A stretch of DNA of 64,000 nt from Agromyces sp. Leaf222. Lineage in GTDB: Bacteria > Actinomycetota > Actinomycetes > Actinomycetales > Microbacteriaceae. The position numbers were made by a program, and so were the translations under genes. A model generated the notes under the pieces. It was not told where the DNA came from. It did no database searches and saw nothing but the letters and a program-made list of their open reading frames with translations. The stretch is taken from assembly GCF_001421565.1 (NCBI RefSeq), contig NZ_LMKQ01000001.1:1363651-1427650 (forward strand), read 5' to 3'. Below are positions 5,309-21,118 of this stretch, piece by piece (within the stretch, counting starts at the first letter, position 1; each line of letters opens with the position of its first letter).

Positions 5309-5854
5309 ATCCTGCGTCGATCGAGGGTGTTGCAGCGTCGAATCGGCGCCGCCTCGGTCGCGTATGGTCGCTCCTCTGCGTGATCGCGCTCTCACGTGGA
5401 GGAGCGTTCGACGCTCGCCCGGACTTCCGCAGGATCAGGCGGAAAAGTCCCCGGAAAACACTGGCGTTCGCGCGTGCAGGAGCGTACGGTGAGTCCCAAT
5501 TCGCACGGAGTCGTGCGGACCAAGGGGACACTTGGGGAGGGGCCGTCGGGGCGGGAGCATTCGTTTCCTCGAGTGAGGGCGAACTCCCGCCAGACGGTGT
5601 TCCGGTTTCACGCCGGTCGGATTCGGTACTTCGATCTCGATTCCGGTATTTCGAGACTCTGGTTTCGCCGGTTCAGCAGTGGCGTTCTCGTCAGCTATGG
5701 CGGATTGACCCTCGCCCTACCAGCGGCCGAATGTCAGTAGCCTGACGCAAGATTCAGCCATGTCTGAATCCCGCTACTCGTCGCGCTGTCACGACACGGT
5801 CTGCTGCAAGTGGACACCGCCTGTCTTAGAGCGACAAGATGAGCCTGCGTCAAG
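5309..5854. other. 546-base gap of unknown content, lower GC
   Basis: No convincing gene. A 114-codon GTG-start frame at 5396-5740 on the plus strand has no ribosome-binding site and no recognisable domain; I leave it unannotated. The base composition is visibly less GC-rich than neighbours. It contains a perfect 7-bp inverted repeat (GATTCAG 5751-5757, CTGAATC 5764-5770). A near-matching inverted pair, CCTGACGCAAG at 5741-5751 and CCTGCGTCAAG at 5844-5854, ends exactly where the tRNA-like gene begins. It looks like remnant or accessory DNA. Confidence 0.5.
5751..5770. repeat. Inverted repeat, 7-bp arms
   Basis: GATTCAG and CTGAATC are separated by six bases (CCATGT). No T-run follows, so it could be an operator or a weak hairpin. 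It lies in the unassigned gap before the tRNA-like gene. Confidence 0.4.
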
Positions 5855-13782: not shown

Positions 13783-16299
13783 ATGCAACCCATGGACGAG
13801 ACTTCACGCACGCAGCCACGCCACCGCTCGAACGTCGAGGCCTTCGAGAGCTCGAACGCCATCATCGAGCTCCTCGCTCGCCACCGAATCGTCGTCGCGC
13901 CGCATGTCGCCTCGCGGCTCGGCCTCGGACTCGGCGGCGATGCCGACGCGATCATCGAGGTCGCCGCGCTGCTGCGCGCGGCCCAGCGACTCGGACTCGC
14001 GGTGCTGCCCGACCCGCTCCCGCTCGTGCCGGCCGTCTCGGCGGCCATCGAGCCGCACGCCGCGAGCCTCGCACCCTGGGAACGACAGGTGCTCGTCATC
14101 GCCGCCGTCTGCACCGACGACCGCATCGACGTGCTGCTCGCCGCGAGCGGGCGCTCGATGTCCGAGCTCGTCGGCGGGTTCCTCAGCCGGCACCTGCTGC
14201 TCGTGGCCGGCCACTTCGCCTTCGCCGATCCGCGCATGCGCGTCTGGGCGCACGCCGAGGCGTCACTCGCCGAGCGCACGGCCGCGCATGCGTCCCTCGC
14301 CGACGCGTACCGCGCGCTCGGCGTCGACGACCAGGTCGTCTGGCACCGATCGCTCGCCACGCTCGAGGGCTCGCCCGACCTGGTCTCGCCCCTGCTCCGG
14401 CTCGCCAGGCGAGCGGATGCCGCGGGCGAAGCCGAGCGCGCGCACGCGATCGCCCGCGAGGCCGAGAGCCACGCGTCGGGGGCCGGAGCCGTGCTCGCAC
14501 GTCGAGTCGCGGGAACCGCTGCGCTGCACGGCGGCTTCGTCGACGACGCGGAGCGCTGGCTCGGCGCCGTGCTGAGCCACGGTGACGACGACAGCCGTGC
14601 GGCCGTGCTCGGCGACTACCTGGTGGCGACGGCGCTGCTGCACGGCGACGTGGCCGAACCCGAGCTCGACGCGCAGCTCGAACGTGCCGTCGAGCCCGAA
14701 CTCTTCGACACTGCCGCCACGAGGCGACGCCTGCAGTCGCTCGTGCGCGCGATCGCGATCGCGGCGGGCCTGCTCGCGGAGCGCGGCGCGGCGCAACGGG
14801 CGGCACGTCGCCTCGACCAGGCGCGTGCGCTCATCGAGCGGCACGGCCTCGTCACCGACGACTGGATCGTCGGGCGAGCGTGGTGCGCGCTCTTCGCGGG
14901 CGACGGGCGCGAGGTCGAGGCCACCGGGCCCCTGGCGCCCGTGGTGGGCGGCCTGCACGCCATCACGATGGCCCTCGAGGTCGGACTCGCCGGCGACCCC
15001 GCTGCGGCGATGCGATGGCTCGGCGCATGCCGCGAGGTGCCGCGCGACCGGCATCCCGCCGACGGGAGCTTCGAGCGGTCCCCGCTGCTGCGCGCCGAGC
15101 GCGCCGTCGCGATCGCGCTGCTCGACCTCTGGGCCGGCGAGGTGCAGCGAGCGGCGAACGGGCTGCGCCAGGCCGCGTGCGACCTGCCGGTGGCGCTGAC
15201 CTTCGGCGGACTCGGTGCGGCCCTCGCGCGCCGGCTCGAGCTCATCGAGACCGGCGAGATCGGGCCGTGGGCGCGCGCCGTCGAGTCGAGCCTGCCGCAG
15301 TCGGCGTCCGGCGTGCGCCGCGAGGACCTCATCGATCGCGCCGTCGAGGCGCACCTGCACGGCCGGCGCGCCGAGGCCGAGACGCTCGTGGCGCTCGCCG
15401 ACGAGCGGGCGCGCGGCGGCTTCGGCTGCGGGCTGCACATCCCCGGACTCGACGCCGCGGCCGAGCACGCCTCGCCGTCGTCGCGCGGGGCCGAAGCCGT
15501 CGGCATTGCACGGCGTCCGCCCGACGCGCGTCTCGCGAGCGAACTCCGGCACCGCATGCGCGGCATCGACCGCGCCGGCTTCGATGCCGAGTACGACGCG
15601 GTCGCCGCGAGTGCGCGCTCGATCCGCTCGCCTTACGAACGTGCACGCACGGAGCTCATGCTCGCGCGCGCCTGCGCGGCCTTCGGCGCCGCCGACCCGG
15701 CGGGCCGGCACCTCGTCGCCGCCGAGCACCTGTTCGCCGATTGCGGTGCCGTCGGCTGGCTTCGCGCGGTCGCGGCCGAGCGGGTGGCGCAGCTCACCGC
15801 GCACCGGGTCGTCTCGTCGGCCGCCGATGTGCGCATGGCGGTCGGTGCGGTCGACGGTGCTCCGAGACCCGGGGTGACGCCCTGGTCGTCCTCGACGACG
15901 GCGCCGGACTCGTCTCCCGCAGGTGCTGCGCAGACCGCGCCGGTCGAGGCCGCCACGCCCGGCGTGCGCTCGACGGCACGGCCCGCGCCCGCCCCTGCGA
16001 GCGAGCGGACGACCCTCGAACGCGCGGCCGCGGCATCCGACGATCGAGCACCCGACGACGTGCTCGGCGAGTGCCGCACGGCGTGGGCCGAGGTGCTCAC
16101 CGACCGCGAGCTCGAGGTCGCGATGCTCGTCGTCGAGGGCTGCTCCAACCGCGAGGCCGCGTCGCAGCTCTACGTGTCGGTGCGCACCGTCGAGGTGCAT
16201 GTCGGACGGGTCTTCACCAAGCTCGCGGTGCACTCGCGGGTCGAGCTCGCCGTGCTCGCGCACCGTATGCACGGGCGCCTCTCGACGTCGCGTACGTAG
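13783..16299 (+). CDS. Large LuxR-family regulator, probable activator of chitinase genes
   Basis: An 838-residue protein whose only firm domain is a C-terminal LuxR helix-turn-helix (about 770-830: LTDRELEVAMLVVEGCSNREAA then VSVRTVEVHVGRVF). The first 650 residues are helical and Ala/Arg/Glu-rich, resembling the TPR-like body of LAL/MalT-type regulators, but no Walker A (GxxGxGK) is present, so the usual ATPase is missing. An Ala/Pro/Thr/Ser linker at about 690-755 joins the parts. GGAGG sits four bases before ATG 13783; ATG 13792 is a possible alternative. Its TAG stop is inside a palindrome also found before the second chitinase, so it probably binds there and activates both chitinases. 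That role is inferred. Confidence 0.8.
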   Translation: MQPMDETSRTQPRHRSNVEAFESSNAIIELLARHRIVVAPHVASRLGLGLGGDADAIIEVAALLRAAQRLGLAVLPDPLPLVPAVSAAIEPHAASLAPWERQVLVIAAVCTDDRIDVLLAASGRSMSELVGGFLSRHLLLVAGHFAFADPRMRVWAHAEASLAERTAAHASLADAYRALGVDDQVVWHRSLATLEGSPDLVSPLLRLARRADAAGEAERAHAIAREAESHASGAGAVLARRVAGTAALHGGFVDDAERWLGAVLSHGDDDSRAAVLGDYLVATALLHGDVAEPELDAQLERAVEPELFDTAATRRRLQSLVRAIAIAAGLLAERGAAQRAARRLDQARALIERHGLVTDDWIVGRAWCALFAGDGREVEATGPLAPVVGGLHAITMALEVGLAGDPAAAMRWLGACREVPRDRHPADGSFERSPLLRAERAVAIALLDLWAGEVQRAANGLRQAACDLPVALTFGGLGAALARRLELIETGEIGPWARAVESSLPQSASGVRREDLIDRAVEAHLHGRRAEAETLVALADERARGGFGCGLHIPGLDAAAEHASPSSRGAEAVGIARRPPDARLASELRHRMRGIDRAGFDAEYDAVAASARSIRSPYERARTELMLARACAAFGAADPAGRHLVAAEHLFADCGAVGWLRAVAAERVAQLTAHRVVSSAADVRMAVGAVDGAPRPGVTPWSSSTTAPDSSPAGAAQTAPVEAATPGVRSTARPAPAPASERTTLERAAAASDDRAPDDVLGECRTAWAEVLTDRELEVAMLVVEGCSNREAASQLYVSVRTVEVHVGRVFTKLAVHSRVELAVLAHRMHGRLSTSRT

Positions 16300-16308
16300 T
16301 CCTGCGTA
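16293..16308. promoter_or_regulatory. Palindromic operator candidate upstream of chitinase 1
   Basis: TACGTAG-TC-CTGCGTA is a 7-bp inverted repeat with one mismatch and a 2-base spacer, 94 bases before the chitinase start. The TAG stop of the LuxR gene is part of it. The same layout recurs perfectly at 19119-19134 before chitinase 2. Confidence 0.55.
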
Positions 16309-16402
16309 TGCGTGGATGTGCTGATTCGCCCGGCCGTCCGCCGTCGTAGCGTCGGGCTGCCCGCGTCCATGCGGGAGACCTCTCGACTCAGACAGGAACG
16401 AC

Positions 16403-18985
16403 ATGCGAACTCCCACTCTCACGCGAACGCGGCTCGCGACCGCCGTCGCCGGGGTCGGTCTGCTGCTGGCGGCGTTGATCCCCGCGACGATCGCCAACGC
16501 CGCCGAGGCCTGCGCCCCGGCGTGGAATGCCACGACCGCATACTCAGGTGGCGCCAAGGCGTCGTACCAGGGCGCCAACTACACCTCGAAGTGGTGGACC
16601 CAGAACAACGTGCCCGGCACCGAGCAGTGGGGCCCGTGGACGAGCAACGGCGCGTGCGGCACGACGACCGAGCCGACGCCGACCCCGACGCCGACGCCGA
16701 CTCCCACGCCGACGCCGACGCCGACGCCGACCCCCACGCCGACGCCGACTCCCACCCCGCAGCCCGGCACCCCGTGGACCGCGAACCCCGACGAGAAGTG
16801 CCGCCCCGACGGCCTCTACCAGACCCCGGGCGTCGACGTGCCCTACTGCACGATCTACGACGAGCAGGGCCGTGAGAAGCTGCCGAACGGCTTGAAGAAC
16901 CGCGTCATCGGCTACTTCACGAGTTGGCGCACCGGCGTGAACGGCGCCCCCAGCTACCTCGCGAGCGACATCCCGTGGAAGAAGCTCAGCCACATCAACT
17001 ACGCCTTCGCCCACATCGACGGGCAGGGCAAGGTCTCGGTGAACCAGGGCGTCGCCGGCAACGCCTCGACCGACCTCACCTGGCCCGGCGTCGCCGGTGC
17101 CGAGATGGACCCGACGCTGCCGTACAAGGGGCACTTCAACCTGCTCACGAAGTACAAGAAGGCGAACCCGGGCGTGAAGGCGCTCGTCTCCGTCGGCGGC
17201 TGGGCCGAGACCGGCGGCCACTTCGACGCCGCGGGCGACCGCGTCGCCGACGGTGGCTTCTACACGATGACCGACTCGCAGGCGAAGATCGACACGTTCG
17301 CCGACTCGGCCGTGCAGTTCATCCGCACCTACGGCTTCGACGGCGTCGACATCGACTACGAATACGCGAACAGCAACGGCAAGGCCGGCAGCCCAGACGA
17401 CTTCTCGTTCTCGGAGCCGCGTCGCGCGAAGCTCTGGGCCGGCTACGAGTCGCTCATGAAGACGCTTCGCGAGAAGCTCGACCGCGCTGGTGCGGCAGAC
17501 GGCAAGCACTACCTGCTCACCGTCGCGGCACCGGCATCCGGATGGCTGCTGCGCGGCGCCGAGGTCTACCAGGTGACCCCGTACCTCGACTACGTCAACA
17601 TCATGAGCTACGACCTGCACGGCTCGTGGAACGACTACGTCGGCGGCAACGGCCCGCTCTTCGACGACGGCAACGACCCGGAGCTCGCGGCCGGCGGCGT
17701 CTACGGCGCCTACAGCAACATCGGCTACCTCAACACCGACTGGGCGTACCACTACTTCCGCGGCGCGATGCCGGCCGGCCGCATCAACGTCGGCCTGCCG
17801 TTCTACACGCGCGGCTGGGACGGCGTGCAGGGCGGAACGAACGGCCTCTACGGCAAGGCGCCGCTCGCCGACCAGACGAAGTGCCCAGCTGGCACCGGCC
17901 CCTCGACCGGCGGCACCTCGAAGTGCGGTAACGGCGCGGTCGGCATCAACAACCTCTGGCATGACCTCGACAAGACCGGCGACGAGGTCGGCGCAGGCGC
18001 GAACCCGATCTGGCACGTGCTGAACCTGCAGAAGGGCGTCGTCGGCGACTACACGTCCGCCTACGGTGCGCCGTCGACCATCACCGGCTCGTACACGCAC
18101 CACTTCGACTCCGTGACGAAGACCGAGTGGTGGTGGAACGCGACCACGAAGACGTTCCTCTCGGGCGACTCGAACCAGGCGATCACGGCGAAGGCGGACT
18201 ACATCGCCGACAACGGCATCGGCGGCGCCATGATCTGGGAGCTCGCGGGCGACTACGAGTACAACGCCCAGAAGGGGCAGTACGAGATGGGATCGACCCT
18301 CGTCTCGCTGCTGCACGACCGCTTCGCGGCCTCGACGCCCTACGACGCCACGAAGGCCAACGTCGCGATGCCGACGAAGGCGATCGACCTGCAGCTGTCG
18401 TTCGGCGAGTTCGCGCTCGGCGACAACAACTACCCGATCAACCCGAAGGCGACCTTCACGAACAAGTCCAAGACCGCGATCCCGGCGGGGTCGACGATCA
18501 CGTTCGACACCGCGACGAGCGACACCGGTGCGCTGGGCGAGCAGGGCGGCTGGGGCATCACCAAGGTGTCCAGCGACCACACGGGTTCCAACGTCGGAGG
18601 CCTCAAGGGCGACTTCCACACCTACACGGTCAAGGTGCCGGCGGGCGGCATCCCCGCGGGCGGCAGCGTCTCGACGAAGTTCTCGTGGCGCCTCCCGATG
18701 ACGCAGATCTCGAACCTGCGCGTGAAGGTCGGCACCGAGACGTTCGCGACCCTCTACGACCTGCCTCGCGGGGTCACGGTCGTCGAGCCCTCACCAGGCT
18801 CCGGCGGCGGAACGGGCGGTGGCGGCGGCACGGGCACGTGCGACGCCCCGGCGTGGAGCGCCTCGGCGGTGTACACCGGCGGCCAGCAGGTGTCGTACGG
18901 CGGCTCCGAGTACACCGCGAAGTGGTGGACCCAGGGCAACACGCCGGGCACCAACGACGTGTGGGGCACCGCGACGGCCTGCTGA
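16403..18985 (+). CDS. Secreted GH18 chitinase with CBM5/12 at both ends
   Basis: An 860-residue secreted enzyme that cuts beta-1,4 bonds in chitin. A signal peptide covers about 1-33 (cleavage near ANA-AEA). A CBM5/12 chitin-binding domain follows at about 36-85 (KWWTQNN, EQWGPW), then a linker of 14 Pro-Thr pairs (91-118). The GH18 domain spans about 165-650; DGVDIDYE has the complete catalytic motif with acid E320. A beta-rich domain follows at about 665-800, a Gly-rich linker, and a second CBM5/12 (about 813-860, KWWTQGNTPG). An AGGAAC precedes the ATG. It lies 103 bases after the LuxR gene, with an operator candidate between. Products would feed sugar uptake. Confidence 0.95.
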   Translation: MRTPTLTRTRLATAVAGVGLLLAALIPATIANAAEACAPAWNATTAYSGGAKASYQGANYTSKWWTQNNVPGTEQWGPWTSNGACGTTTEPTPTPTPTPTPTPTPTPTPTPTPTPTPTPQPGTPWTANPDEKCRPDGLYQTPGVDVPYCTIYDEQGREKLPNGLKNRVIGYFTSWRTGVNGAPSYLASDIPWKKLSHINYAFAHIDGQGKVSVNQGVAGNASTDLTWPGVAGAEMDPTLPYKGHFNLLTKYKKANPGVKALVSVGGWAETGGHFDAAGDRVADGGFYTMTDSQAKIDTFADSAVQFIRTYGFDGVDIDYEYANSNGKAGSPDDFSFSEPRRAKLWAGYESLMKTLREKLDRAGAADGKHYLLTVAAPASGWLLRGAEVYQVTPYLDYVNIMSYDLHGSWNDYVGGNGPLFDDGNDPELAAGGVYGAYSNIGYLNTDWAYHYFRGAMPAGRINVGLPFYTRGWDGVQGGTNGLYGKAPLADQTKCPAGTGPSTGGTSKCGNGAVGINNLWHDLDKTGDEVGAGANPIWHVLNLQKGVVGDYTSAYGAPSTITGSYTHHFDSVTKTEWWWNATTKTFLSGDSNQAITAKADYIADNGIGGAMIWELAGDYEYNAQKGQYEMGSTLVSLLHDRFAASTPYDATKANVAMPTKAIDLQLSFGEFALGDNNYPINPKATFTNKSKTAIPAGSTITFDTATSDTGALGEQGGWGITKVSSDHTGSNVGGLKGDFHTYTVKVPAGGIPAGGSVSTKFSWRLPMTQISNLRVKVGTETFATLYDLPRGVTVVEPSPGSGGGTGGGGGTGTCDAPAWSASAVYTGGQQVSYGGSEYTAKWWTQGNTPGTNDVWGTATAC
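16673..16759 (+). repeat. Pro-Thr linker-coding repeat in chitinase 1
   Basis: Fourteen CCN-ACN codon pairs in a row encode the linker between the binding and catalytic domains. Such low-complexity DNA can change length by slippage. Confidence 0.9.
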
Positions 18986-19110
18986 ACACGTCCGGGCGGC
19001 GCAACTCACGCGTCGTCCGGATGCCGCGGGCGGGGGCGAGTCCATCGTCTCCGCCTGCTCCGGTCGCCGGCCGACCCCGGCATGCCCCCTGCCACGGCGG
19101 CGACCTTCTC

Positions 19111-19144
19111 GGAGCCGGGTACGTAGCACTACGTACCCGGCTCC
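19111..19144. promoter_or_regulatory. Perfect 34-bp palindrome between the chitinase genes
   Basis: GGAGCCGGGTACGTAG and CTACGTACCCGGCTCC are exact 16-base complements around CA. The core TACGTAG-N2-CTACGTA matches the element before chitinase 1. It lies 126 bases after the first chitinase and 112 before the second, so it may serve both as operator and as transcription terminator. Confidence 0.65.
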
Positions 19145-19255
19145 TCGTCGTCGCCGCGAACATGTGGATCGTGCGGACGCCGCGACGCGGCATCCGCTCG
19201 TACCGTGACCTCGAGGGGCGCGACCGCGCCCGATCCTCCCTCGACGAAGGACACC

Positions 19256-21118
<1,863 letters not shown>

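Follow-up and report, generated by a model that had tools for sequence, protein, structure and literature searches.

Two neighbouring chitinase genes of Agromyces sp. Leaf222 are each preceded by a palindrome of the same make, and the first of these palindromes overlaps the stop codon of a gene for a LuxR-type regulator. Do the two sites form a common switch, and is this regulator the protein that acts on them? The window analyzed here is a stretch of 64,000 nucleotides (nt) from contig NZ_LMKQ01000001.1. We computed the place, specificity and conservation of the palindrome (P-box), of a second element (E-box) and of a putative -10 box, as well as their co-occurrence with the regulator. The shared site and promoter layout probably represent a real, apparently undescribed switch for chitin digestion. 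We consider it probable, judging from sequence comparison, that the P-boxes are operators of a dedicated chitinase regulator, which would bind them as a dimer and activate both promoters. The main features are as follows.

13783..16299, plus strand: gene of the LuxR-type regulator, 838 amino acids (aa), with a GerE helix-turn-helix (HTH) domain and a long helical body resembling tetratricopeptide repeats (TPR)
16293..16308: P-box A, palindromic site TACGTAG-TC-CTGCGTA, TACGTAGTCCTGCGTA, overlapping the stop codon of the regulator gene
16403..18985, plus strand: chiA, GH18 chitinase with ChiC domain and CBM5/12
19120..19135: P-box B, palindromic site TACGTAG-CA-CTACGTA, TACGTAGCACTACGTA
19256..21118, plus strand: chiB, GH18 chitinase with CBM5/12

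Two palindromic sites and their specificity

In both P-boxes, a spacer of 2 bases separates two half-sites of 7 bases in inverted orientation. The first-pass annotation of the window had proposed that the same palindrome precedes both chitinase genes, that the first copy overlaps the regulator stop and that the second lies inside a perfect 34-bp palindrome. All three points hold: the stop codon TAG at 16297-16299, which ends the open reading frame (ORF) 13783-16299 on the plus strand, lies within P-box A, and P-box B is enclosed by a perfect palindrome of 16+2+16 bases (19111-19144). The sequence given for the second site was right and its position was not, being 19120-19135 instead of 19119-19134. 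Likewise, the distance of 94 bases to the chiA start (ATG 16403) stands, while that to the chiB start is 120 instead of 121 bases, counted to ATG 19256, which was taken as the start (the ORF list has an upstream GTG at 19205).

The exact pattern TACGTAGNNCTRCGTA is found at two places in the whole genome (4,428,049 bases), both of them chitinase promoters, and is thus not scattered. Allowing up to two mismatches adds three further places; for the backwards control, 10 matches were counted on the forward and 6 on the reverse strand. Within the window, a scan with up to three mismatches yields six matches, four of which are P-boxes A and B counted on both strands. This low-stringency count would not convince by itself, because 7 of 100 shuffled windows reach the observed six (mean 2.13). 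The same genome contains one more GH18 gene outside the window:

C1:1697755-1698843, minus strand: third GH18 chitinase gene (locus L107)

Neither a P-box nor an E-box is present within 400 nt before its ATG, and a looser scan revealed only two N5-spaced look-alikes, located in identical stretches further upstream. The missing site agrees with the two-gene regulon suggested by the first-pass annotation. A wider regulon in this genome was rejected, because the exact motif has no further copy (scan with up to two mismatches) and both elements are missing from the 400 nt before the third GH18 gene.

Co-occurrence of site and regulator within Agromyces

We compared 60 Agromyces genomes, the window genome included, using the search pattern of the first-pass annotation, which was fixed before any relative was examined. 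The exact motif is present in 14 genomes at 21 sites (control pattern: no match), and according to tblastn and sequence inspection each of the 21 sites immediately precedes an orthologue of chiA or chiB, again in line with a two-gene regulon. ChiC-domain genes also occur in 14 of the 60 genomes: motif and ChiC are found together in 13 genomes, the motif only in G057, ChiC only in G036 and neither in 45 (Fisher p = 3.7e-11). A profile search, in which 16 candidates were scored per genome, detected the regulator in 15 genomes at E <= 1e-30 (profile A1), namely the 14 motif genomes and G036; the regulator of G041 is divided between two contigs. The chiA site of G036 has one mismatch to the exact motif. 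Hence, a site is present in 15 of 15 regulator-bearing genomes (14 exact, one with a mismatch), and the exact motif, the only pattern scanned there, is absent in 45 of 45 genomes that lack the regulator. Genome G057 retains regulator, site and chiB and is missing the chiA/ChiC gene. This distribution indirectly supports the earlier proposal that the regulator would bind both sites, and so do a related site beside regulator homologues in other families and the NarL/GerE-type HTH of the protein (see below).

In the 14 chiA-bearing genomes, each gene is preceded by a best 16-mer that is similar to the site and agrees with 10 to 14 of the 14 positions of TACGTAGNNCTACGTA. The weakest sites precede chiB in G041 (10/14), G036 and G046 (11/14 each) and G016 (12/14). 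The gene order aminotransferase-regulator-chiA-chiB-ABC transporter, with a seemingly pstB-like transporter gene, is complete in the window and in 12 of the 14 fetched loci. The two incomplete loci are that of G041, which is ended by a contig end, and that of G057, which shows regulator and chiB only.

Conservation beyond the genus

The wider comparison comprised 396 genomes of the order. Twenty of the 26 genomes with ChiC genes do not belong to Agromyces, and 22 loci were fetched from these. A regulator homologue is located directly before the chitinase genes in 18 loci (chiB precedes chiA in L087 and L089) and is lacking at the loci of G543 and G642 and at the second chiA loci of G703 and G663. 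Of the 18 best 16-mers in the vicinity of the regulator stop, 13 retain all eight outer bases of TACG-N8-CGTA, with seven in L082, L087 and L089, six in L098 and four in L102; at least seven are thus kept in 16 of 18. As in the window, the site overlaps the regulator stop in L082 and L101, and a degenerate site does so in L102. The 22 loci comprise 292,521 bases, in which thirteen 16-mers score at least 10; ten of them are positioned between -16 and +123 nt from the regulator stop, one of which (L087) differs from the site assigned in that locus.

A shuffle test of the chiA-side regions gave p < 0.05 in 28 of 32 cases with a score derived from the same sequences; the misses are L089, L098, L102 and L100, the last having its site beyond the 150 nt supplied. 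The best 16-mer of this test lies elsewhere than the assigned site in L087 and overlaps it in L090, L093 and L097. The inner bases of the palindrome differ by clade, and in many loci those of the two half-sites vary in concert: Agromyces has TAG/CTA, several loci of family f9 have GGG/CCC and L101 has TGA/TCA. Family f9 is termed Cellulomonadaceae-like here, since the L087 and L089 regulators share 88% identity with a protein of Oerskovia jenensis. The exact motif was found in 3 of 388 genomes outside Agromyces, compared with 5 genomes for the control pattern.

A second conserved element and a putative -10 box

Downstream of the palindrome there is a second conserved element, the E-box, which the first-pass annotation had overlooked.

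16311..16325, plus strand: E-box A, CGTGGATGTGCTGAT, a variant with N6 spacing that fits the loose pattern only
16347..16352, plus strand: putative -10 box of the chiA promoter, TAGCGT, its position retained in relatives
19163..19178, plus strand: E-box B, TGTGGATCGTGCGGAC
19201..19206, plus strand: putative -10 box of the chiB promoter, TACCGT

We compared 48 promoters, for which the P-box was placed manually and L098 and L102 were excluded for their poor P-boxes. The E-box consensus is TGTGG-N7-KGAY, followed strictly in 27 of the 48 promoters and as a variant in the others, and a TANNNT sequence begins 21 to 23 nt past the E-box end in 47 of them. Among the 14 Agromyces chiA promoters, palindrome and E-box are separated by 2 nt in 13 and adjoin directly (0 nt) in that of G041. 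Elsewhere the gap is 15 to 32 nt, apart from L082_A, where the script mis-set the E-box. A strict pattern of E-box plus -10 box (TGYGG allowed) has 31 matches in 36 chitinase loci, all before chitinase genes and none on the reverse strand; seven loci are without a match (L084, L085, L086, L088, L091, L093, and L101). The window contains one match, before chiB, and eight other loci (114,166 bases, both strands counted) contain none.

Combining P-box and E-box in one pattern, we obtained matches in 17 of the 396 genomes, 14 of them at regulator-chitinase loci, and in 7 genomes with the backwards control; as the pattern was derived from loci already known, these counts are informative on specificity and not on sensitivity. 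In the 3 kb around the off-locus matches of G678, G453 and G542, neither a chitinase nor the regulator was matched; those of G678 and G542 show one inner pair each.

Two unlinked second chiA copies, in L092 (about 5490-5523) and L094 (5895-5937), keep the E-box next to a degenerate palindrome. Because the regulator of both genomes sits on another contig, this arrangement would speak for action in trans.

The regulator protein

The sole Pfam domain above cut-off in the regulator is the C-terminal GerE/LuxR HTH (PF00196, 60.2 bits versus a cut-off of 23.5), which spans residues 771-826 (about nt 16093-16260). Its profile matches the DNA-binding domains of known structure of NarL, VraR, FixJ, DevR and GerE at the C-terminus, and the HTH stretch SVRTVEVH is invariant across 39 homologues. 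The best named relatives of the protein are all from Agromyces. A structure model (mean predicted local distance difference test score 84.9) shows a long helical body and a low-confidence segment (residues 691-757) preceding the HTH. A fold search with this model returned nine matches at E <= 0.001, mostly of TPR type, with template-modelling scores of 0.08-0.36; Avs3 was the top match, a STAND protein with TPRs ranked 23rd, and no firmer fold assignment emerged.

No autoinducer-binding N-terminal domain was found, all Pfam families up to E = 1 being of HTH or sigma type, and the protein would not be classed as a quorum-sensing LuxR regulator, for which such a domain is the criterion. Pfam scans also revealed no receiver domain and, up to E = 1, no AAA/P-loop family, and a Walker-A-like motif is absent from the first 250 residues. 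By its size (838 aa) and C-terminal LuxR HTH (771-826) the regulator resembles the large ATP-binding regulators of the LuxR family (LAL, MalT-like), an assignment that was rejected since no N-terminal ATP-binding (Walker A) domain is detectable. Among six non-Agromyces homologues scanned, P0065 and P0076 have AAA_16 above cut-off, P0068 and P0070 have it below cut-off, AAA_22 is weakly matched in P0083, and no ATPase-type domain was detected in P0039 (836 aa, from Arthrobacter). Among the 39 aligned homologues, a simple Walker A motif is confined to two of the nine long ones (908-1035 aa; P0065 and P0077), all 30 short homologues (754-862 aa) being without it. The regulator may therefore derive from an ATP-binding LuxR type and now stand outside the definition of that family.

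Relation to known systems

DasR of Streptomyces, a GntR-type regulator, controls chitinases via dre sites, with TGGTCTAGACCA as dre pattern. The system proposed here is similar in being an actinobacterial chitinase control with short upstream operators, yet it differs in having a LuxR-type regulator and no dre-type site in either promoter. A DasR regulon was rejected on this ground: none of the 25 window matches with up to three mismatches to TGGTCTAGACCA falls in 16300-16402 or 18986-19255. The first-pass annotation had reported no DasR site either. The 25 matches in the whole window exceed the 12 expected, and none of 100 shuffles reaches this number, perhaps as an effect of composition.

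With NarL/FixJ-type systems, the proposed chitinase switch shares the HTH family, two inverted 7-base half-sites, the 2-base spacer and TAC...GTA ends. Its protein is, in contrast, large, with a TPR-like body and no receiver domain found. Two inverted heptamers are described as a NarL/FixJ-type arrangement (PMC6099782) and the NarL heptamer is TACYYMT (PMC4886647), versus a half-site of TACGnnn in the window. For the LAL TpdR of Rhodococcus jostii, PMC6099782 describes a box B at -51 to -37 and a proposed site TnnAAnnGCGGAnTC that is a direct repeat, whereas the site of the window is an inverted repeat. Large size and C-terminal LuxR HTH are common to the window protein and LAL regulators such as TpdR, and the E-box is located like box B and is partly similar to it in sequence. 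AAA_16 in homologues P0065 and P0076 is another likeness to LAL proteins, from which the window protein differs in having no detectable P-loop domain.

A literature search confined to titles and the beginnings of abstracts, with subscription papers mostly outside its reach, returned no LuxR-type chitinase regulator and no such operator in actinobacteria, nor any regulator ascribed to the chitinases of this group; with such coverage, the negative result counts for little. The regulator-operator pair is of a known kind and apparently unreported. Its interest lies in base-level predictions for a regulator, its operator and its promoter layout, all conserved across several families. Moreover, the ATP-binding domain is apparently absent in one branch that has kept the operator, which would be a natural experiment on signal sensing by large LuxR-type regulators.

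Proposed mechanism

We propose that a dimer of LuxR/NarL-type domains would sit on the 16-bp palindrome, with outer bases TACG/CGTA, in the inverted-heptamer arrangement named 7-2-7. If transcription starts 7 nt past the -10 box, which would place the two starts near 16359 and 19213, the E-box would lie near the promoter, at roughly -50 to -35. Regulator and E-box together would bring RNA polymerase to a TANNNT promoter without a recognisable -35 box. Both chitinase genes would be switched together, each from its own promoter. The inducing signal, presumably chitin products, would probably be sensed by the helical TPR-like body. Since the position of the E-box and part of its sequence are similar to those of box B of TpdR, one regulator protein may contact both elements. 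A simple scan of 10 kb revealed no sigma-70-type promoter, and a position upstream of a promoter without recognisable -35 agrees with activation, which we infer in preference to repression, together with binding of the P-box and perhaps the E-box.

More tentatively, and with doubt prevailing, the system could be a chitinase control of the Micrococcales' own. A descendant of ATP-binding STAND/LAL proteins of LuxR type would have lost, or never kept, the ATPase in the relatives from Agromyces and Arthrobacter, and would use the same code of palindrome and E-box at a fixed distance to the -10 box. The chiB operator would then sit in the apex of the chiA terminator hairpin, so that one stretch ends chiA and switches on chiB.

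Alternative explanations

The palindrome around P-box B also has to be considered as an RNA structure:

19111..19144, plus strand: perfect 16+2+16 palindrome that follows chiA and encloses P-box B, its arms probably a terminator

That the two palindromes resemble each other by chance could be argued from the window shuffles at three mismatches, yet this is already refuted, as 13 further Agromyces genomes carry the motif at these very promoters and other families have related sites, and its probability is negligible. We also regard it as very unlikely that the palindromes are primarily RNA hairpins that terminate the regulator and chiA transcripts, with their mutual likeness being secondary. 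The P-box B hairpin is strong (15-bp stem, -38 kcal/mol, z -5.8), and 8 to 12 perfect outer pairs with differing arm sequences are found at 9 of 14 Agromyces chiA-chiB sites. P-box A folds as well when G-U pairs are used, but weakly (z -1.8; 11 of 200 shuffles fold equally well). Against terminators also speak the at most six perfect outer pairs at all 14 Agromyces chiA sites, their absence in G057, and the chiA cores of G016 and G024, which disrupt RNA pairing. In addition, no T-run follows the hairpin at 19111-19144 and the terminator scan does not list it; the strict definition of an intrinsic terminator thus does not apply, and a terminator without T-run is possible. A pure terminator reading was rejected because the core persists at promoters where the arms are missing, with 0 to 2 outer pairs (chiB of G016, G036, G041, G046 and G049, and G057). 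Rather than one extended operator, the 34-bp palindrome is better regarded as an operator flanked by probable terminator arms: the long arms are probably a chiA terminator that grew around the operator and presumably end chiA transcription.

A protein other than the adjacent regulator, either global or another of LuxR type, could bind the P-box, with the adjacent regulator acting at the E-box or elsewhere. The E-box is placed like box B of TpdR and its end resembles GCGGAnTC of the site proposed for TpdR (PMC6099782), and in G067 the same 16-mer is found at the stop of another LuxR gene with no chitinase after it. However, in the 60 Agromyces genomes the exact P-box occurs solely with this regulator, whose homologues in other families adjoin related sites, and we judge a different binder to be unlikely. 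Alternatively, the regulator might repress the chitinases from the P-box. This seems distinctly improbable to us on two indirect grounds, since the P-boxes are upstream of the E-box (gap 0-32 nt), hence upstream of and not over the -10 box, and since the 10-kb scan found no sigma-70-type promoter.

Several observations weigh against activation by the adjacent regulator through the P-box. The regulator adjoins the site, so co-occurrence in Agromyces is partly one locus inherited together, and the negative result in the 45 other genomes covers the exact pattern alone. In G036, G041 and G046, the site before chiB agrees with TACGTAGNNCTACGTA at only 10-11 of 14 positions, and second-best 16-mers there reach 8. 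The E-box is a variant in every one of the 14 Agromyces chiA promoters, that of the window included (N6 in the window), and the relaxed P-box and E-box consensus was taken partly from loci in which it was later counted. The ChiC genes of G543 and G642 are without regulator in the 13 kb fetched and without strict E-box, and L098 and L102 have poor P-boxes despite regulator and strict E-box. The inner bases vary among clades, whereas the HTH stretch SVRTVEVH stays constant. Finally, the 14 on-locus matches of the combined pattern have three inner pairs in five cases, two in five, one in one and none in three, so that inner symmetry is a tendency and no rule.

Further observations

Identical to P-box A, a 16-mer TACGTAGTCCTGCGTA in G067, a different genus (L057, 8708-8723), lies over the stop of another LuxR-type regulator gene (975 aa); no E-box was seen by eye, and the next gene is not a chitinase. 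It could be due to chance. We rejected it as proof that the site follows LuxR genes generally, given the 3 of 388 genomes against 5 for the control and a differing HTH stretch. In G188 (L054, about 1490-1525), a long palindrome with core TACGTAGATCTGCGTA follows a gene that by eye resembles glycine dehydrogenase, with no match to the window chitinases or regulator within 3 kb. In G453 (L109), a genome without ChiC, the off-locus match has the 6-4-6 palindrome TACGAC-TTTC-GTCGTA, which is followed by an E-box-like stretch. In the chiA-chiB intergenic regions of L046, L048 and L049, the operator does not lie within a hairpin but borders on one (GGGCGGG...CCCGCCC, by eye). Additional palindrome-like sites, each with an E-box-like stretch, are located in L087 (8976-8991, a 16-mer scoring at least 10) and L089 (about 8570); the gene behind them lies downstream of chiA and by eye encodes a secreted protein or lipoprotein.

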